DNA of 64,000 bases, from NCBI RefSeq assembly GCF_014304815.1, contig NZ_CP047958.1, positions 744,001-808,000 on the forward strand. The letters run 5' to 3'. The notes beneath the pieces are model-generated. The model was not told where the DNA came from, ran no database searches, and saw nothing but the letters and a program-made list of their open reading frames with translations. The position numbers and the translations under genes are program-made. Position 1 is the stretch's first letter; every line of letters starts with the position of its first letter. This stretch comes from Synechococcus sp. MIT S9220 (GTDB lineage: Bacteria > Cyanobacteriota > Cyanobacteriia > PCC-6307 > Cyanobiaceae). Below, one piece after another: positions 4,897 to 17,445 of the stretch.

Positions 4897-4954
4897 TCAC
4901 CACCTGGGCTGACAGCGTTTCCAGCCACCTGACTTCTGCATGTTTTCCCAGGCT
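4897..4954 (-). pseudogene. DUF1651 relic, C-terminal end
   Basis: The minus strand encodes AWENMQKSGGWKRCQPRW and stop, the conserved C-terminus of the DUF1651 small-protein family seen intact at 20845-21117 and 29907-30179. The rest of the gene is missing; its upstream side abuts an antisense capsid-gene scrap. Confidence 0.6.
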
Positions 4955-5012
4955 TCGTTTGCTTCGATGCAGGACGCGATCGCATAACCCCATGACCGCC
5001 TGCTTGTGGTGC
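4955..5012 (+). pseudogene. Phage capsid gene scrap (3' end)
   Basis: TCG TTT GCT TCG ATG CAG through TAA (4955-4987) encodes SFASMQDAIA and stop, identical at protein level to the last ten residues of the capsid fragment at 12506-13021. The similarity continues into the next 25 bases, where both copies begin a frame with (A/G)TGACCGCCTGCTTG four or so bases after the stop, as expected if the next phage gene started there. Confidence 0.65.
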
Positions 5013-5872: not shown

Positions 5873-6273
5873 TGCCCTGGGAAACTAGCGATCATCAAGG
5901 CATTAAAAACCCGGCCTAAAAGCTGGAGAAAGATTAAGAAAAACACGATATTGGCCAACAATATTTGCTTATCATTTTTGCAATATGGAAATTTTACGAA
6001 CCAATGAGATCTTCTTGAATACCAGTAGTGATCTTCTTTCTGGCTAATCCTCAGATTTTCAAAACGAATGAAAATCTTTGTTTCCACTCTTTTAGTTCCA
6101 ACCCTTCCAAGGATCCCGTCTTTCCATCGATAATCATCAATCGGAGCCTGCCCACTCTTTGTGCCGGATCTCCATGTTTGAGCTATTGAATACATCTGTG
6201 AACTCCAACCAACCCATTGATTCTCAAATCTAGGGCTTGAGTTGCATTGGTCTTTGTTGATGGCAGTCAGCAA
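5869..6273 (-). CDS. Hypothetical protein with C-terminal membrane segment
   Basis: An open frame of 134 codons, AT-rich and rich in Trp, Tyr, Arg and Lys. It has a hydrophobic stretch near its end (ILLANIVFFLIFLQLLG). The longest start is TTG 6273, overlapping the end of the DUF3104 gene by 7 bases; an internal ATG (MYSIAQ) is possible. The composition looks protein-like, but no family is recognised and the frame may be a decayed gene. Confidence 0.35.
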   Translation of the reverse strand: MLTAINKDQCNSSPRFENQWVGWSSQMYSIAQTWRSGTKSGQAPIDDYRWKDGILGRVGTKRVETKIFIRFENLRISQKEDHYWYSRRSHWFVKFPYCKNDKQILLANIVFFLIFLQLLGRVFNALMIASFPGQ

Positions 6274-6536
6274 CTCGGAAGGATGTGCGTCACCAGATCA
6301 GCGTTGACCCAGCGGATCACGTCTGAATCCACATCAGTGATCTGGAACAGGTTGTGGACGCTTGGGTCACGGGCAGCTCCCCCGCAGTGGATCACCTGCC
6401 CCATCCACCATTCCTTGTCCTGCTTCTCACCGGTCAGGTAATCGTGTTTGACGATCACCGTCATGCCTGGAGCGACATCCAAAAAGATGGGCCGTTCTGA
6501 CTCTGGTGAGTTGTAGACCCCATGGTCAACAGACAC
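6267..6536 (-). CDS. DUF3104-like small protein
   Basis: The 89-residue product contains GMTVIVKHDYLTGE, WWMGQVIHCGGAARDP, NLFQITDVDSDVIRWVNADL and a short C-terminus. This matches my recollection of DUF3104, a family of unknown function in marine Synechococcus. Its composition suggests a compact beta-rich fold. Two broken copies of the same gene occur at 10783-10830 and 11086-11231, all in the same orientation, so this is the one intact member of a local repeat family. Confidence 0.75.
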   Translation of the reverse strand: MSVDHGVYNSPESERPIFLDVAPGMTVIVKHDYLTGEKQDKEWWMGQVIHCGGAARDPSVHNLFQITDVDSDVIRWVNADLVTHILPSC

Positions 6537-7129: not shown

Positions 7130-7152
7130 CCCCGCCAAGTGCGGGGTTTTTT
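7130..7152 (+). terminator. Strong rho-independent terminator
   Basis: CCCCGC-CAAGT-GCGGGG followed by TTTTTT. It ends the transcript of the exported-protein gene at 6647-7003. Confidence 0.9.
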
Positions 7153-7172
7153 ATTGCATTGATGTGGACTAC

Positions 7173-7257
7173 CTAAACGGGGGTGGCCGTCGGGTGGAAG
7201 CGTTGCCCGCCTGACTTCTGCATGGTCTCCCAGGCTTCGATGGCGTTGTGGCGCAGG
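7173..7257 (-). pseudogene. DUF1651 relic, C-terminal part
   Basis: The minus strand reads LRHNAIEAWETMQKSGG, the DUF1651 C-terminal helix, but then diverges (QRFHPTATPV and stop) instead of the usual GW(K/R)RC ending. The N-terminal two thirds are missing. The gene at 7260-7514 begins immediately on its upstream side. Confidence 0.6.
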
Positions 7258-7562: not shown

Positions 7563-7718
7563 TCACTACCTGGGCTGACAAGGTTTCCAGCCACCTGTTT
7601 TCAGCATCATTTCCCATGCCTCGATGTCGTTGTTCCTGAGCATGCGCCTGACGACTGGTTGACCACCACCCCGTAGCGGTCTGGTCTCGACGATGACCCA
7701 CCGAGCATGAGCAATCGG
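7563..7718 (-). pseudogene. DUF1651 relic, C-terminal two thirds
   Basis: The minus strand has an uninterrupted frame PIAHARWVIVETRPL through RRMLRNNDIEAWEMM and GWKPCQPR ending in TAG. It is the downstream half of a DUF1651 gene. Its upstream homology stops exactly at the stop codon of the exported-protein gene 7719-7997, and the N-terminal piece reappears at 8030-8075. Confidence 0.65.
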
Positions 7719-7997
7719 TCACTTCGAGTAGCCCCTGATCAAACAGAGTTTGTAAGCCGAGAACTGAGCCCGGTTTGGTGGCCACTCTTCGCCGTACTGG
7801 ATGGAGGCGATGCCTCGGTTGATGTTGTCGTCTCCCCAGCCGCCTCCAGCTTTCTGTGCGATGGGGCAGAGAAGTTTCAGGGCCTGTTGACGGGCTTCCA
7901 AATCAGGAATCGACTCTGGGGAAGGACCGGGAGAAGGTTCCGCGTTGACGTGACAGTTGGCGCCGAGAGCCAGAAGGACTGCTGCGAAAACCTTCAT
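7719..7997 (-). CDS. Small exported protein inside a DUF1651 gene
   Basis: The 92-residue product has a signal peptide (1-19, ending VNAEP) and a mature region with two cysteines (LLCPIAQ, KLCLIRG) and a GGGWGDDN motif, likely periplasmic. The family is not recognised. It is flanked on both sides by pieces of one DUF1651 gene in the same orientation, as if it replaced about 75 bases of that gene. Confidence 0.7.
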   Translation of the reverse strand: MKVFAAVLLALGANCHVNAEPSPGPSPESIPDLEARQQALKLLCPIAQKAGGGWGDDNINRGIASIQYGEEWPPNRAQFSAYKLCLIRGYSK

Positions 7998-8029
7998 TGC
8001 CGTGGAGGTGTCTGATGGGTCAATTGTCA

Positions 8030-8075
8030 GTCAGCCGACACCGTTCTTTGGTGCGTGTAGATCGACGAGTATTGG
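8030..8075 (-). pseudogene. DUF1651 relic, N-terminal piece
   Basis: The minus strand encodes ILVDLHAPKNGVG, matching LLVDRHAPKNGVGWL in the copy at 14025-14264. It is the missing upstream part of the relic at 7563-7718. Confidence 0.45.
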
Positions 8076-8160
8076 GGCGGGCTTTAAGAACAGATGAAAT
8101 GCTCTTTCGAGAGAGGTTTAAACCATAGTTGAACCGCACAAACCAGCCAGGCTTGAATCC

Positions 8161-8460
8161 ATGAAACACGTTGCCTTGGGATTGATTTGCATTCTCACCA
8201 CTGCAATGCCCGCCATTGCTTGGGAACCTGGCGATGACTGGCGGGATGACCAATGCGAATCGGTTATCGATGGAGCCGACAGGGTTGCCAATGTCTGCAG
8301 AGGTGTTTACGGGAGGGGAGAAGTTTTTTTGGGGATTTATTGGAATGACGGCGCTGAAGTTGTAGGCCCCTGCAACGCAACTGAAAGCTGGCCTATGGAG
8401 TACCGCGGGTTATCACGTGCCGATGCTTATGACTGGCTCGTTGGGTATTGCGGTTGGTGA
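8161..8460 (+). CDS. Small exported protein, unknown
   Basis: The 99-residue product has a signal peptide (1-20, ending AIA before WEPG) and a mature part with four cysteines (DQCESV, NVCRGV, GPCNAT, GYCGW) consistent with two disulfides. Aromatic, Gly-rich segments (FLGIYWNDGAEVVG) suggest a small beta domain. It is not recognised. A short frame starts at its stop codon in a GTGA overlap. Confidence 0.75.
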   Translation: MKHVALGLICILTTAMPAIAWEPGDDWRDDQCESVIDGADRVANVCRGVYGRGEVFLGIYWNDGAEVVGPCNATESWPMEYRGLSRADAYDWLVGYCGW

Positions 8461-8570
8461 GCATTGAGTTGTGGCCAAGTAAGGATCATGCATCAGTTCA
8501 GCTTGATGCCAGGGAGTTGCAGTGGTGCGCTCAGTTGCTCTTTTCCCTTGGCAATAAGCGCACCCGGTGA
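8457..8570 (+). CDS. Possible short coupled ORF
   Basis: A 37-codon frame starts at GTG inside the stop codon of the exported-protein gene (GTGA overlap), as in translationally coupled genes. The product is hydrophilic with an amphipathic stretch (LDARELQWCAQLLFSLG). There is no other support. Confidence 0.3.
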   Translation: MSIELWPSKDHASVQLDARELQWCAQLLFSLGNKRTR

Positions 8571-8665
8571 AAGCACAGCCAAAAGCACGAAAGGTGTTCG
8601 CGTCCTGCATAGAAGCTAACGACTGAGCGTGGCGACAGCAATATGGGAATAACGCGGAGCTATTG

Positions 8666-9409
8666 ATGGTGAATGCCAGTCTGAACTGGGCCTCAATCTG
8701 GGGGCTGCTGCTCATGGCCCTCTGGGTTCCTGCCCTCGTGGTGTCGTTGCGACGCTTCGATGTGTCGATGGATCGGGGGCAACCGCGCGAGTCGCTTCAG
8801 GGGCTCGGGTTGGCCTGGCTTCTGGTCACCCTGGCCGGACGCTGCATCGCCCTACCGCTTGTGGGATCGATCATGTTTTTTCAGGGGTGGCGGTTGGATC
8901 CGATCCTGCAATTCGGATTGACCCTGCTCGTGTGGGGCACCATCGTTGAGTCGATCCCCTCCATTCGTGCGGACCACCGAGCGTTACAGCAACGCTCGGC
9001 AGAAGATGCTCAGCAATCAAGTCGACAGCGTGCTCTGGAGCTTCGCCTTCGCGATCGTGTGTGGCCCTGGGTGTTTGCACATGCAGTTCTGCCTTTTGCT
9101 GGCATCTATTACGCAATCACCCGGCGCACAATCACACCTTTGCTGTGGGATGCCGTCGCACGATTTGTCGTGCTGCTGATCACGATTGGCGTTGCCTTAA
9201 TGACTGCCCAGTTGTTTCCATATAAACCTGAGTCATTGGTCTTCGGTTTCGGTGGACTGTCAGATGCCGAGACGGTGAACGTCTGGATTCAAGTGGCTGT
9301 GAACTTGGTGTTGATGGTGGCCAATGTGCTCGCTTGTCTTCTGCCTGTGAGGGCTGCCATCCGCCGCACGCAGGCAGATGCGCGTCGCCGTTTGGAAGCC
9401 CGCGGTTGA
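8666..9409 (+). CDS. Ycf66-like membrane protein
   Basis: The 247-residue product begins VNASLNWASIWGLLL and contains FFQGWRLDPILQFGLTLL (about 74-91) followed by ESIPSIRAD, which matches the N-terminal membrane domain of Ycf66, a cyanobacterial/plastid protein of unknown function. The second half (about 130-235) has at least three more hydrophobic segments and is not typical Ycf66, so the protein is longer than, or fused relative to, the classical form. ATG 8666 is preferred over TTG 8663. It is an isolated, GC-richer gene amid tiny AT-rich ones. Confidence 0.75.
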   Translation: MVNASLNWASIWGLLLMALWVPALVVSLRRFDVSMDRGQPRESLQGLGLAWLLVTLAGRCIALPLVGSIMFFQGWRLDPILQFGLTLLVWGTIVESIPSIRADHRALQQRSAEDAQQSSRQRALELRLRDRVWPWVFAHAVLPFAGIYYAITRRTITPLLWDAVARFVVLLITIGVALMTAQLFPYKPESLVFGFGGLSDAETVNVWIQVAVNLVLMVANVLACLLPVRAAIRRTQADARRRLEARG

Positions 9410-9480
9410 CCACGTGTTCTACAGCTCGCTGGAGTTAGTCACACAAACCCCGGGCCTTCTCTCAAGCTTTTGGGTCCCAT

Positions 9481-9858
9481 TTGGCAAAAAAAATCGTGGG
9501 TCGTTCGTGCGCGCACTTTTCCTGTAGCGCCAGCGAATCATTGGTTGATCATCTAATTGAGATTATGGCCGTCTTAAATCTGAGTAATGCCAGTTCCCAC
9601 CTTGGGTTTCGCTCATGCGTGACATTGCGACGAATGCACCGTGATGGCCAATTAGATGACTACTTACGGGATGGAGTGGACAAAAGGGGCATTTATATAG
9701 AGACAGACCCTGATGGTCTGCCGTCATTGCAAAGGCACGTGCAGAACCACACTCGATTCAATGCAGCGTCACCGCTATGGCGAAGGCTGGAGCCGTTGAG
9801 TGATGAAGCGCTGGAGGAAGCGATGGCACCAATCAATCGATGGATTGAAAGCCGTTAA
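9481..9858 (+). CDS. Possible HTH DNA-binding protein
   Basis: A frame of 125 codons from TTG; ATG at 9565 (MAVLNLSNASSHLGF) is a good alternative giving 97 residues. The segment LNLSNASSHLGF..CVTLRRM has helix-turn-helix character, and GIYIETDPDGLPSL could be the wing that follows in excisionase/MerR-like proteins. It has no membrane segment. It may be another element-encoded regulator, but the assignment is weak. Confidence 0.5.
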   Translation: MAKKIVGRSCAHFSCSASESLVDHLIEIMAVLNLSNASSHLGFRSCVTLRRMHRDGQLDDYLRDGVDKRGIYIETDPDGLPSLQRHVQNHTRFNAASPLWRRLEPLSDEALEEAMAPINRWIESR

Positions 9859-9957
9859 TAACTCTGCCAAGCACGGGGCTTTTTATTGCCCTAGAGCCTC
9901 AGCGTCACTGCTTTCCGCAAGGCTGGCTCCCATTCAAATGAAGGATTCGGGCTGTTC

Positions 9958-10782: not shown

Positions 10783-10830
10783 CGCTGGAAGGATGTGAGT
10801 TACCAGATCTGCATTGACCCAGCGGATCAC
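10783..10830 (-). pseudogene. DUF3104 relic, C-terminal scrap
   Basis: The minus strand encodes VIRWVNADLVTHILPA, matching the C-terminus of the intact DUF3104-like gene at 6267-6536 with only a few base changes. The upstream part of the gene is absent; a terminator-like hairpin lies where it should be. Confidence 0.6.
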
Positions 10831-10832
10831 AA

Positions 10833-11085: not shown

Positions 11086-11231
11086 GTCCGGAATCACATG
11101 GGTGACCAGGTCTGCATTGACCTAGCGGATCACACCTGAATCCACATCAGCGATCTGGAACTGGTTGTGGATCTTCGGATCACGTGCAGCGCCGTTGCAG
11201 TGGATGACATGCCCTAGCCACGAATCCTTAG
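11086..11231 (-). pseudogene. DUF3104 pseudogene with nonsense codon
   Basis: The minus strand encodes DSWLGHVIHCNGAARDP, NQFQIADVDSGVIR, then TAG where the intact copy has TGG, then VNADLVTHVIPDC and stop. The start and first 35 or so residues are missing. The truncated end abuts the stop codon of the DUF2808 gene. Confidence 0.65.
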
Positions 11232-11232
11232 G

Positions 11233-11757
11233 TCACCACTGATTCTGGAAGATCTTCATGTCAACTACGCCCACCATTTGATGGACAGGATTTGGCCCTG
11301 CTGGAATCGCCGTCACTGAAAATGTATAGAAGCCTTGAGGTGGATTCACTCCTGCTTGAAAAGCGATGGTTACGGTGTCTCCAGGCTTCACCACAGATGA
11401 AAATTTGACCTCGACTGAGCGGGCGTCATCGCTGAATTTCGCCTCGACGTCAAGTGACCTGCCTTGATGACGCGGAGTTCCTATAAATGCTTGAACAGGG
11501 ACGGCTCCATATGAGAAAGCGTTCTGACCCTGGATCTGTTCAAGATTGATACCTCCCAGATCTGCACCTGCACCCTTTGGGAATTCCAGGGTTAAGTAAT
11601 AAACGGCAGCACCTTGAAAGGCATACCAGCTGTAGTTAGTCAGTTTCGCCTTTGTAGGCACAGCCACAAAACTAGTTTGAGTATTGATCTCGACAGCTTT
11701 CACGGATGATGCACTGATCAGCGCAGCTGCAATAAAGGTTGTACCCAGAAGACGCAT
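11233..11757 (-). CDS. DUF2808 exported protein
   Basis: The 174-residue product begins MRLLGTTFIAAALISASSVK, a signal peptide, and matches DUF2808, a cyanobacterial family of exported proteins of unknown function. The family pattern is visible: YYLTLEFPKGAGADLGGINL, FIGTPRHQGRSLDVEAKFSD, VVKPGDTVTIAF, GFYTFSVTAIPAGPNP and a short C-terminal strand. A longer frame reaches 11817, but the signal peptide fixes ATG 11757. Its stop codon touches a DUF3104 relic. Confidence 0.8.
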   Translation of the reverse strand: MRLLGTTFIAAALISASSVKAVEINTQTSFVAVPTKAKLTNYSWYAFQGAAVYYLTLEFPKGAGADLGGINLEQIQGQNAFSYGAVPVQAFIGTPRHQGRSLDVEAKFSDDARSVEVKFSSVVKPGDTVTIAFQAGVNPPQGFYTFSVTAIPAGPNPVHQMVGVVDMKIFQNQW

Positions 11758-12505: not shown

Positions 12506-13021
12506 ATGCGTCGAGTGACCAGGGGATCCTCTCTGATCAGCCTCAATACATCAGGAATTGGTTCAGTAGCTGGCGGAACCACTGGTGCATCGCCAACGTT
12601 GGATCACTTACTAAACCTCAAAAAGGAGGTCGCCGTCGATAACGGTGATGTTGCAACGTGCGCCTTCCTCACGAACTCGAAGGTCGAGTCGGTTCTTGGA
12701 GAGCTCAAGGACTCGCAAAGCCAATACCTGCTCAGCCCTTATGGAGCTGAACTTGGTCGTTCCCAGATTGCGGGGAGGCGTTTCGAGCTCAGCAATAACG
12801 TCCCCTCAGACCTCTCCAAGGGCACTGGATCCAATCTGTCCGCTGTTATCTACGGGAACTTCAACGATTTACTGATCGGCCTATATGGCACGACTGAGAT
12901 CCTTGTAGACTCCTTCCCCGACTTCGCTAAAGGCACGACATCTGTTCGGGTGCTGCAGAGCATCGATATTGCTGTCCGCCATGCTGAGTCGTTTGCCTCC
13001 ATGCAGGACGCGATCGCATAA
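12506..13021 (+). pseudogene. HK97-type phage major capsid protein, C-terminal part
   Basis: The 171-codon frame matches the C-terminal half of HK97-family phage capsid proteins: LNTSGIGSVAGGTTGASPT, TCAFLTNSKVESVLGELKD, RFELSNNVPSDL, YGNFNDLLIGLYGTTEILVD and the terminal SIDIAVRHAESFASM. Full proteins are near 300-400 residues, so the N-terminal delta and part of the P domain are missing and the first few codons are not homologous. It is a prophage or satellite relic. A second copy of its 3' end is at 4955-5012. Confidence 0.75.
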
Positions 13022-13115
13022 CCGCGTGACCGCCTGCTTGCGGTTTGCTGCTGCCAGAGTGGATGCTGACTTATTGGGCTTTTGTGTGCACAATGACGAT
13101 AGACAAGCTTTCCCG

Positions 13116-13519: not shown

Positions 13520-13568
13520 ATTGCATAACTGCGTTTCCACCCGCCTGTCTTCTGCATCGTTTCCCGGG
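13520..13568 (-). pseudogene. DUF1651 relic, C-terminal scrap
   Basis: The minus strand encodes ARETMQKTGGWKRS, the DUF1651 C-terminal signature, with both ends missing. It lies beside the VanZ-like gene. Confidence 0.5.
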
Positions 13569-13591
13569 CCAGGTATACCTTCAGCTGATAT

Positions 13592-13951
13592 TTAAGGATC
13601 GCCTGAGACGCCTAGGGATGCAATCAATGCAATAATTGAACCAATCAGCAACCCCGCTAAGTTAGCGATAAAATCAGTCCATTCACCATAGCGATTTACA
13701 TAAGGCTGAATAACTTCTATTGCGCCGCTGTATATTGCAAAGAATAGAATTATGTATCTCCAGCCATTCGGTCTGCGCAAGGCTGTCGGGAATGCAAGTA
13801 ATGCGTAGGCAATTAAATGGTGCGTTTTGTCAGACCCGGCCACTTCAGGTAATTCTTCATTTGGTGATAGGGATAAAAAGCTAACCGAAAGTAAGAGCAG
13901 TACGCTAAGAAAAAACCAATATTTGCCAACTAGACTTATAGCTTTTGACAA
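13592..13951 (-). CDS. VanZ-like family membrane protein
   Basis: The 119-residue product has four hydrophobic segments and the VanZ-like core: SDKTHHLIAYALLAF followed by GAIEVIQPYVNRYGEWTDF and NLAGLLIGSIIA. VanZ-like proteins are small polytopic membrane proteins; the family founder affects teicoplanin resistance, but most members have no assigned role. It sits between two DUF1651 relics. Confidence 0.85.
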   Translation of the reverse strand: MSKAISLVGKYWFFLSVLLLLSVSFLSLSPNEELPEVAGSDKTHHLIAYALLAFPTALRRPNGWRYIILFFAIYSGAIEVIQPYVNRYGEWTDFIANLAGLLIGSIIALIASLGVSGDP

Positions 13952-14024: not shown

Positions 14025-14264
14025 TCACCAGAAGACGTTTTGCATCGTTTCCCATGCCTCAATGGCGTTGTGTCTGAGCATCCGTCTGATGACTGGCTGA
14101 CCATTACGCCGTAGCGGTCTGGTCTCAACAAAAACCCACTGCGCGTGTGTCGTTGGATTCGCGTTGGTGAAGCTGCAGACCTTGCCTTCCTGATCGTTCC
14201 GCAACCAGCCGACACCGTTCTTCGGTGCATGGCGATCAACAAGTAGTCGGTCCTTGTTTACCTT
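14025..14264 (-). pseudogene. DUF1651 copy, altered at both ends
   Basis: The minus strand keeps most of the family: LLVDRHAPKNGVGWLRND, SFTNANPTTHAQWVFVETRP and RRMLRHNAIEAWETMQN, but ends NVFW instead of GW(K/R)RC..PRW, and the frame upstream (to 14354) does not look like a normal DUF1651 start. It may still be translated; I treat it as degenerate. Confidence 0.55.
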
Positions 14265-15398: not shown

Positions 15399-15647
15399 TC
15401 AGTGACGAGCAGGTGAAAGTCCACAAAGCTTGTCGAGTTGAGCGACTGCACCGACGACAGCGCCTGGATTGTTTTGGGATAAGCCCAGACGAGCGCTCTC
15501 CATCAACAGATGAATGCCTTGAGCGACAAGGTCGCTCCGTTGAATATTCGCCTGATCGATGTCCTCCCTGATCAGTGCATATGCCTGCTGAACAGTCCTT
15601 TGTGCAGTCCTGCGGCTAACTCCCTTGGCCTTTGCCAGGTACGCCAC
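15399..15647 (-). CDS. HTH protein, terminase-small-subunit-like
   Basis: The 82-residue product starts at GTG and contains a helix-turn-helix (AKAKGVSRRTAQRTVQQAY), an acidic linker and a helical C-terminus ending QLDKLCGLSP. The combination resembles small phage terminase subunits and related DNA-binding proteins that act as packaging or regulatory factors. The frame continues upstream into a DUF1651 relic, so the natural N-terminus may have been lost. Confidence 0.6.
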   Translation of the reverse strand: MAYLAKAKGVSRRTAQRTVQQAYALIREDIDQANIQRSDLVAQGIHLLMESARLGLSQNNPGAVVGAVAQLDKLCGLSPARH

Positions 15648-15710
15648 CCCGTAACGGCCTGGTCTCGCAACAACCCAGTTGGCATGTGCCGTTGGTTTGG
15701 AGTTGATGCA
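15640..15710 (-). pseudogene. DUF1651 relic, middle part
   Basis: The minus strand encodes SKPTAHANWVVARPG, the DUF1651 centre. A one-base deletion relative to the copy at 7563-7718 (GTTGCGAGACC versus GTCGTCGAGACC-type spacing) shifts the frame, which then enters the HTH gene. Confidence 0.5.
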
Positions 15711-15865
15711 GCTTGTTGATGCTTATGTTGCAAACCGCTGACTTGAGCATTTTTGCTACCTAGTCAGGCGCCGCGGGTTGTTTATGTTTCGCGGGTTCTC
15801 AGATCTGAAGGTCCCCTTTCGACAGCATTAAGTCCTGCGCTTGAAGCAGTCGGAAACGCCAATCA

Positions 15866-16337: not shown

Positions 16338-16434
16338 GAAGGAGCAGTGAGTACAAATACTCTCCCGGAAAAATAATCTGTCCGCAAGGTGTTGCATCAT
16401 CCACAACCTGGGATTGCATCTCTTTCACTCATCT

Positions 16435-16478
16435 GACTTCTGCATGGTTTCCCATGCCGCGATGGCGTTGTGGTTAAT
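16435..16478 (-). pseudogene. DUF1651 relic, C-terminal scrap
   Basis: The sequence TGACTTCTGCATGGTTTCCC and following CATGCC...GCGTTGTG is the minus-strand DUF1651 segment for HNAI-AWETMQKS. Both ends are lost. Confidence 0.45.
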
Positions 16479-16802: not shown

Positions 16803-16819
16803 AGCCACATCACCCTTGG

Positions 16820-16965
16820 GTTGATATCGCCCCCAGCCGCCTGACTTCTGCATGGCCTGCCATGTCTCAATCTCGTTGTGCCTATTCATGCTCCTGTAGG
16901 CCTGAGGCACAGATGGGTTGGACCGATCCCGCGATGGACAAAGGCGACACCATGTACGGACTTGC
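16820..16965 (-). pseudogene. DUF1651 relic, C-terminal half
   Basis: The minus strand keeps an open frame with RTWCRLCPSRDRSNPSVPQA, then NRHNEIETWQAMQKSGGWGR, which aligns with YRWVRPNPPVPQSQRRMLRH and the C-terminus of the intact copy at 20845. The upstream part is replaced by the lipoprotein gene 16975-17166; the N-terminal piece is at 17178-17225. Confidence 0.55.
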
Positions 16966-16974
16966 TTTCTTTTG

Positions 16975-17166
16975 ATGTTGCGTTCGCTATCCGCAATGGC
17001 ATTGGTCATTTGTTTAGGTGTTGTCTTGCTTTTGACTGCTTGCTCGAATGACGGCATTGCGTTGTCGAATCGCGCTGTTGATCGAGAAGCGGGCTTGATA
17101 GAGCTGGGCACCATGGATCAAGCTCCTGACATAGATCAAGAATCAATCAATTTTGATCGCTTGTAG
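16975..17166 (+). CDS. Small lipoprotein inside a DUF1651 gene
   Basis: The 63-residue product starts MLRSLSAMALVICLGVVLLL and has the lipobox LTAC, so the mature protein (about 43 residues, acidic) should be membrane-anchored through a lipidated cysteine. A longer frame begins at 16918 but adds only basic residues. It lies antisense within a split DUF1651 gene. Confidence 0.6.
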   Translation: MLRSLSAMALVICLGVVLLLTACSNDGIALSNRAVDREAGLIELGTMDQAPDIDQESINFDRL

Positions 17167-17177
17167 TCAACCAATAA

Positions 17178-17225
17178 GTCGGAGTCAGCCGTCACCATTC
17201 TTCGGTGCATTTTGATCAAGTAGCG
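17178..17225 (-). pseudogene. DUF1651 relic, N-terminal piece
   Basis: The minus strand reads LLDQNAPKNGDG followed by TGA where the intact gene has the TGG of GWL. It corresponds to LLVDRHAPKNGVGWL at 14264-14200. Confidence 0.45.
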
Positions 17226-17445
17226 GATGGACCTTGTTTGGTATGCCCACGCGATGTCAATCACCGGACTGAAACCGTTTGGGATGAACTCGTTTTGACG
17301 ACCGTAAGGAGCACTTTTAATTATCTTTATTAAATTTACGTCCATAAACTCTACAACTTTATTGGTTTTTGCTTAAAGATCCAGGATTGTTTTTAAAGTC
17401 CGTATATAGATTCCAATAAACTATACAAGTGATTTTATCATCTCT

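Follow-up and report, generated by a model that had tools for sequence, protein, structure and literature searches.

A putative exported-protein gene lies between two DUF1651 pieces

The analyzed stretch of Synechococcus sp. MIT S9220 DNA, 64,000 nucleotides long and referred to here as the window, contains on its minus strand, read 5′ to 3′, a DUF1651 5′ piece (about 8070-8031), a small protein gene (7997-7719), and a DUF1651 3′ piece (from 7712-7718 to 7563). DUF1651 sequences were located with a DNA profile of 281 positions, which was built from 11 near-full copies, and both pieces were mapped on a near-full copy at about 14 kb of the window. The features of the locus are:

7563..7718, minus strand: DUF1651 3′ stub, profile positions about 126-281, certain to 7712
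7711..7721, minus strand: left joint zone, in which the flank of the exported-protein gene of genome G013 and DUF1651 sequence overlap, beside the TGA (7719-7721)
7719..7997, minus strand: small protein gene, an intact open frame for 92 aa with an N-terminal hydrophobic stretch
7998..8030, minus strand: upstream segment of this gene, partly common to G013
8031..8070 (about), minus strand: DUF1651 5′ stub, profile positions about 41-76, no start codon
14018..14274, minus strand: near-full DUF1651 copy used for mapping, in which ORF 14025-14354 matches PF07864

The data showed that profile positions 112-281 matched 7563-7729 (nhmmer, E 1.5e-41), and that this 3′ piece was 81% identical over 113 columns (BLAST) to the window copy at 14037-14147. 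Profile positions 32-89 matched the 5′ piece at 8019-8080 (E 6.6e-8), which was 85% identical over 40 bases to 14206-14245 of the same copy. The ORF of the mapping copy scored 24.3 bits against PF07864, above the Pfam cut-off of 22, and the 3′ piece alone scored 13.5 bits, below this cut-off; at the DNA level both pieces match the family. The initial annotation had described a DUF1651 gene split around an exported-protein gene, and the intact gene at 7719-7997 between a 3′ and a 5′ piece agrees with that description, except that the 5′ piece is not as long as given there and lacks a start codon. The alignment to the copy at 14025-14264, which it had proposed for mapping both junctions to the base, matched both pieces but left the left joint blurred over 7711-7718.

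This blurring has two sources. Most intact DUF1651 copies align to 7712, and three of them (L015, L016, L029) to 7718, while the homology of the exported-protein locus to G013 covers 7711-7997 at 90% identity, thus running 8 bases past the stop codon. Because the G013 homology reaches 7711 and the DUF1651 homology reaches 7712-7718, the left joint was placed in 7711-7718, and not exactly at the stop codon as previously proposed. Within these eight bases the window agrees with G013 at 7 and with the DUF1651 consensus at 5 (counted by eye), and the sequence TGACCGA(T/C)TGC is common to the window and G013 at this joint.

On the other side, 8071-8460 is 87% identical over 390 bases to genome G024, which covers a 99-aa gene (8161-8460) and its upstream region, and 8081-8470 is 90% identical to genome G016, again with the 99-aa gene and its upstream region. 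The right limit of the 5′ piece was set at 8070 because these homologies begin at 8071 and 8081, so that the N-terminal piece, earlier given as 8030-8075, is limited to about 8031-8070. Judged by this homology, the 5′ piece is cut at 8070 by an unrelated segment, and the start codon and the rest of the first 40 or so profile positions are absent from it. Mapped on the 14-kb copy, the missing DUF1651 stretch amounts to 49 bases if homology extends to 7718 and to 55 bases if it extends to 7712, instead of the about 75 bases first estimated; these bases count as lost resident sequence only if both pieces derive from one copy. A comparison of the 5′ and 3′ pieces with 25 copies (Spearman 0.41, p 0.04) hints weakly at a common lineage of the two pieces.

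DUF1651 is broken at this locus. At 7566-7568 the 3′ stub reads TAG instead of the TGG of the family, one codon ahead of the ancestral TGA, and it lies in the same frame as the exported-protein gene, directly behind its TGA. Read-through of this TGA into 7566 would give a fusion of about 143 residues (window 7566-7721). The differences between the 3′ piece and three intact copies at codon positions 1, 2, and 3 numbered 3/8/15 (with 3 gap positions), 2/8/20, and 5/7/18. Since they fall mostly at third codon positions, the 3′ piece was probably part of a working gene until fairly recently.

The 92-aa protein and its homologues

The 92-aa protein encoded at 7719-7997 is predicted to be exported. 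It had no Pfam match at E 1 and no NCBIfam match at E 0.01, and its AlphaFold2 model consisted of three helices with a mean pLDDT of 68, which is too low for a fold search or a further statement on the protein. A search of the genus with this protein gave matches at E 0.01 in 10 of 31 genomes, six of which had weak matches only (E 1.8e-4 to 0.007), mostly within much longer open frames. A scan of the genome collection with the exported-protein alignment found 43 stretches fitting the pattern, one locus among them being a relative, on a contig of the MAG TMED88. The search for the same insert elsewhere, which had been suggested at the outset, found the gene in G013 (86% amino acid identity), the TMED88 contig (73%), G016 (52%), and G025 (47%). 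The comparison of the window with G013 gave dN 0.080 and dS 0.228, and because of this difference the gene looks to be under selection.

In two regions the gene occurred without a DUF1651 match in the examined stretch, namely in the TMED88 locus (L096), where this stretch included only about 900 bases downstream of the gene, and in L058. The L096 contig, binned as bacterium TMED88, also encodes by eye leader peptides of the double-glycine type. These leaders, together with the 73% identical gene, suggest that it may be a picocyanobacterial contig placed in a wrong bin.

DUF1651 stubs flank small genes in other genomes

The window contains further DUF1651 pieces, including a second split copy, and another repeated small gene, DUF3104:

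4897..4962, minus strand: DUF1651 3′ stub, DNA profile match
7206..7256, minus strand: DUF1651 3′ stub, DNA profile match
13527..13570, minus strand: DUF1651 3′ stub, separated from the near-full copy by a VanZ-like gene (13592-13951)
15642..15713, minus strand: DUF1651 middle fragment, DNA profile match
16402..16475, minus strand: DUF1651 3′ stub, DNA profile match
16815..17259, minus strand: second split DUF1651, with 5′ stub 17183-17259 and 3′ stub 16815-16898
16918-17166, plus strand: lipoprotein-like ORF between the stubs of the second split DUF1651
6267-6536, 10787-10831, and 11089-11261: DUF3104 (PF11302), repeated small gene

A whole-genome search with the DUF1651 consensus gave matches in 19 of the 31 genomes of the genus, among the matches listed. 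The arrangement of DUF1651 pieces was compared in 46 regions from 9 genomes, consisting of the window and 45 stretches (496,226 bases), which were mostly picked around listed DUF1651 matches, with 10 of the 19 genomes with matches lying outside this sample. The regions contained 137 DUF1651 matches, of which 25 were full copies, 40 were 5′ stubs, 60 were 3′ stubs, and 12 were middle fragments. Neighbors less than 1.6 kb apart, a limit chosen after the catalogue had been seen, were on the same strand in 52 pairs and on opposite strands in 4. Among the same-strand pairs a 5′ stub was followed by a 3′ stub in 19 cases, with small genes between them, and a 3′ stub by a 5′ stub in one; the other orders were 5′-full (3), full-3′ (4), full-5′ (0), 3′-full (0), 3′-3′ (9), and 5′-5′ (4). 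The missing part of DUF1651 pointed toward the cargo in 26 instances and away from it in 1 (28 versus 11 without the distance limit). When homologous cargo was counted once (by eye; lipoprotein 7, metalloprotease 2, cupin 2), the 19 pairs were reduced to 11, still against 1. The exported-protein gene of the window stands outside the 19 pairs, its 5′ piece being classed as a middle fragment.

These counts bear on the idea that ordinary decay removed random parts from separate DUF1651 copies within a small-gene array, so that their arrangement would be due to chance. Such decay could account for the twelve middle fragments and the common 3′-then-3′ neighbors (9 under 1.6 kb), and it agrees with the breakpoints of the 19 pairs, which were no more complementary than under random pairing (P 0.22). 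On the other hand, it predicts equal numbers of 3′-then-5′ and 5′-then-3′ neighbors, while 1 versus 19 were observed within 1.6 kb and 5 versus 20 at any distance, and we regard it as very unlikely. On account of the same P value, the attempt to prove a single split gene by complementary stub breakpoints was given up.

With looser end limits 30 intervals with about 21 different cargos were found, the cargo lying in either orientation relative to the stubs. Judged by hydropathy alone and without a control, about 25 of the 30 contained at least one ORF with a signal, lipoprotein, or membrane stretch; among the remaining five are presumably an NmrA-like gene and a cupin accompanied by a decarboxylase-like gene. 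A secreted-looking metalloprotease, of the HExxH type by eye, forms the cargo of a split DUF1651 in G024 and G016 (L039:9950-10660 and L037:7521-8192), and the L039 protein matched Reprolysin_4 and Peptidase_M66 above the Pfam cut-off.

Six other small genes of the window, used as controls, showed no 5′-then-3′ split in the regions, but five of these families had at most 3 matches there, which leaves DUF3104, with 23 matches, as the only real control. The DUF3104 matches comprised 8 near-full copies, 14 3′ stubs, 1 middle fragment, and no 5′ stub. Because DUF3104 leaves 3′ stubs too, DUF1651 may not be special, and the process may be wider than this family.

Cargo changes its flanks by apparent crossovers within DUF1651

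The ends of the DUF1651 repeat are sharp: 57 5′ ends were conserved from profile position 1 and 65 3′ ends to the TGA, with little or no information outside. When the flanks were clustered, the 64 upstream flanks gave 9 clusters of at least two members, and the 83 downstream flanks gave 13. The upstream family U1 was found at 8 copies in 6 genomes, both full and truncated, and it leads into DUF1651 pieces ending at positions 42, 79, 160, 163, 192, 261, 281, and 281. Full copies paired upstream and downstream families as U1-D3, U1-D9, and U3-D9, which shows that flanks are exchanged at the DUF1651 gene. In the flank clustering no split locus shared both flank families with a full copy.

To locate such exchanges, identity along the 5′ stub was compared for the cargo homologous to the lipoprotein-like ORF 16918-17166, which occurs with differing outer flanks in G001, G002, G010, G015, and G016; this mapping covers the lipoprotein cargo alone. 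Among G001, G002, G015, and G016, loci with different upstream flanks were 57-69% identical in the outer stub and 86-95% further in, identity stepping up at about position 40 for G002 and at about 76 for G016, and the cargo itself was 84-96% identical. For other DUF1651 copies the mean identity was 69-74%, based on 24 copies and 276 pairs (253 pairs in one segment), and 72-74% in the outer stub; their 95th percentile in the inner segments was 86-87%. The G001 and G015 loci, which have the same upstream flank, were 87-97% identical throughout. Since identity rises inside the 5′ stub where the upstream flanks differ, the comparison places crossovers between DUF1651 copies within this stub, for one cargo in four genomes; a crossover within a common arm is what cassette exchange would produce.

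The last profile position of the 5′ stubs varied over 40-234, and the first one of the 3′ stubs over 50-249; this scatter of the joints between stub and cargo fits illegitimate first joints. Short overlaps of the two stubs were also seen, for example of 9, 15, and 19 positions. Scattered joints are difficult to reconcile with transposition, in which a transposase acting in trans would move either a unit bounded by the DUF1651 ends or the cargo itself. Although the sharp repeat ends, the changing flanks, and the many internal replacements could be expected from it, between loci that carry one and the same cargo identity drops within the 5′ stub and not at its end, and constant ends with fixed joint positions were not found. 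The reading of the repeat ends as transposon ends was dropped on account of the joints and the identity step, and transposition is in our view highly improbable. A virus as the vehicle was rejected as well, as none of 50,697 phage records matched the DUF1651 consensus. In viral contigs a peptide-pattern scan, which finds close relatives only, gave 17 stretches with the exported-protein pattern and 2 with the DUF1651 pattern, with no relative among them.

We consider it reasonably probable that the window is one instance of recurrent exchange of cargo anchored in DUF1651 genes. DUF1651, present in multiple copies in variable regions, would serve as a homology anchor for small genes, mostly for exported or membrane proteins. 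In a first step illegitimate joints, variable in position, would link cargo to DUF1651 in place of the stretch between them (about 50 bases here). In a second step the cargo, with its 5′ and 3′ stubs in one orientation, would be exchanged among DUF1651 copies by homologous recombination in the stubs, so that the same cargo would come to lie under different outer flanks. The order of stub, cargo, and stub, the sharp repeat ends, the changing flanks, and, for one cargo, the crossover positions in the 5′ stub can be read directly from the compared genomes. The exported-protein gene of the window would have entered by the same route as the lipoprotein cargo. The donor would be incoming DNA, arriving by natural transformation or another route, and the first joint could have been made by homology-facilitated illegitimate recombination. 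A ComEC-family domain was found in 30 of the 31 genomes of the genus, which says little because 10 of 14 control genomes have it too.

The exported-protein gene in G013 and G016

In G013 (L036) a DUF1651 5′ stub (9150-9201; profile positions 2-62, E 0.001 and 0.0037 in two profile searches) is followed by the exported-protein gene (9269-9547) and, after a spacer, by a DUF1651 copy of complete length with indels (9605-9884). In G016 a gap of about 63 nt (counted by eye) separates the exported-protein homologue from the DUF1651 copy behind it, whose 5′ part is degenerate. The upstream flank of the G013 stub was 73-74% identical, over about 175-181 columns including the stub, to the flank of an uninterrupted DUF1651 gene in G002 and G011. 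By this similarity G002 and G011 are empty sites for the G013 arrangement, and they answer the proposal in the initial annotation to look for the uninterrupted gene in other genomes; no empty site with the window's own outer flanks was seen in the 46 regions examined. That annotation had also taken the event for a replacement and not a simple insertion. The kind of event appears right, as the order of stub, cargo, and stub recurs and the G013 stub has empty sites, but with a startless 5′ stub cut at 8070 the reading of the two pieces as parts of one gene finds no support here; they may come from one DUF1651 copy or, as in the refuting case that the annotation had named, from different ones.

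The flanks of the gene were compared between the window and G013 using simple base shuffles as the null. For the upstream flank P was 0.004 when the test was restricted to 7998-8030 (0.4% of 500 shuffles) and 0.076 for the whole flank, unrestricted, and the G013 downstream flank compared with DUF1651 gave P 0.10, unrestricted. Of 255 registers, that of the window gave the best fit of the G013 sequence past the 11 shared bases to DUF1651 (shuffle P 0.0065), while the G016 flank showed no DUF1651 fit at that register (score 1 versus 14 for the window). The upstream and downstream tests lend modest support to joints that are older than the split of the window and G013 lineages.

The further DUF1651 copy behind the gene in G013 and G016 means that the arrangement in the window could also have arisen by deletion between two DUF1651 copies. 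A loss of an estimated ~200 bases would have fused the stop of the exported-protein gene to the 3′ part of the downstream copy, starting from a state in which the gene lay between a decayed 5′ stub and a complete copy, as in G013 and G016. The G013 order is just such a state, and in G016 the gene likewise precedes a DUF1651 copy. As G016 holds the more distant homologue (52% against 86% amino acid identity), the two-copy state would be ancestral, and the 11 bases shared at the joint also fit a deletion. Against it, the 3′ piece of the window shares 68% identity with the copy downstream of the gene in G013 and up to 81% with others in the set of 25, and 22 of the remaining 24 copies are nearer to it than that of G013, although the exported-protein genes are 90% identical; moreover, G013 already has DUF1651-like sequence in the window's register immediately behind the 11 shared bases. 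Trees of the 3′ pieces neither rejected nor supported a pair of the window and G013 (AU p 0.32; 0.098 with the G016 copy); as none of the four tested clades was rejected, the tree was set aside as a pointer to the source copy of the window piece. The 68% identity, the empty sites in G002 and G011, and the register fit lower the case for the window as a plain deletion from a G013-like state, and we regard such a deletion as rather unlikely.

For the exchange of cargo anchored in DUF1651 we counted in favor, besides the stub order, the sharp ends, the flank families, and the crossovers, the empty sites and the fit of the G013 sequence at the window's register. Counted against it were the mapping of crossovers for one cargo, the 3′ stubs of DUF3104, the choice of regions by their DUF1651 matches, the lack of a split locus with both flank families of a full copy, the missing breakpoint complementarity, the unrestricted G013 flank tests, the misfit of the G016 flank, the further DUF1651 copy behind the gene in G013 and G016, and the gene without a DUF1651 match in L096 and L058.

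Comparison with known systems

Repeated pilin and surface-antigen loci exchange cassettes by homologous recombination. The DUF1651 loci are similar in that cargo changes its flanks via apparent crossovers in shared arms, but their arms are pieces of an unrelated small gene, and the cargos are unrelated to each other and not variants of one gene. Integron cassettes mostly contain one small gene per unit with a repeated sequence between units, which is also seen at DUF1651 loci; there, however, the joints are scattered with no constant recombination point, and the cargo lies in either orientation.

In homology-facilitated illegitimate recombination (HFIR), as described for naturally transformable bacteria in the sections considered here of an experimental study, an insertion is coupled with deletion of resident sequence, one side being homologous and the other mostly having 3-10 bases of microhomology (PMC3240628). 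The combination of a homologous and an illegitimate joint corresponds to the two kinds of joint seen at DUF1651 loci. The difference is that the losses in those experiments, as given in these sections, were about 1 kb, while here the process is deduced from genomes, the loss is small, and the anchor is a dispersed gene family. The parts used of another study, the only one among 5.39 million papers searched in which DUF1651 was named, describe DUF1651 (PF07864) as limited to marine cyanobacteria and one coliphage, as induced on cyanophage infection, and as possibly helping cyanophage yield (PMC5490813), that is as a host-response gene, in contrast to the recombination site proposed here. Genomic islands of marine picocyanobacteria are variable regions rich in gained genes, likewise variable as the regions studied here, and the portion consulted of that paper describes neither DUF1651 nor exchange bounded by gene pieces (PMC7522525). 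In the accessible portions of the literature, mostly open-access, on Synechococcus, islands, tycheposons, illegitimate recombination, and competence, no small gene, DUF1651 included, was found described as an exchange arm.

The way in which small surface and secreted genes are gained and shuffled in the islands of picocyanobacteria, which are abundant in the ocean, is understood only in part. Should short stretches of a single small gene family act as exchange arms, island turnover would need no dedicated mobile element, cargo could be listed by looking between DUF1651 stubs, exchange rates could be measured in populations, and the abundance of broken DUF1651 copies in variable regions would be explained. 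It is possible, although doubtful, that DUF1651 genes provide docking arms for gene shuffling in general among marine Synechococcus-like cyanobacteria. Copies of this dispersed and often intact family would then be opened again and again to receive secreted-protein genes, and the stubs would allow the cassettes to circulate between loci and species through homologous recombination, with no recombinase of their own.

Other sequences in the window

Three further observations were made. The small SRRTAQR-type protein encoded at 15399-15647, which has a helix-turn-helix-like look and no Pfam match, resembles by eye the product just upstream of the G013 DUF1651 stub (L036, about 9030-9130). A short sequence followed by T's at 7130-7158, found near-unchanged in G016 (27 of 27 bases) and three times in L096, is probably a terminator. 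A dispersed repeat of about 50 bases is present at 4955-5010, 12989-13044, and 8598-8644, the copies being 87-91% identical and one of them inverted.
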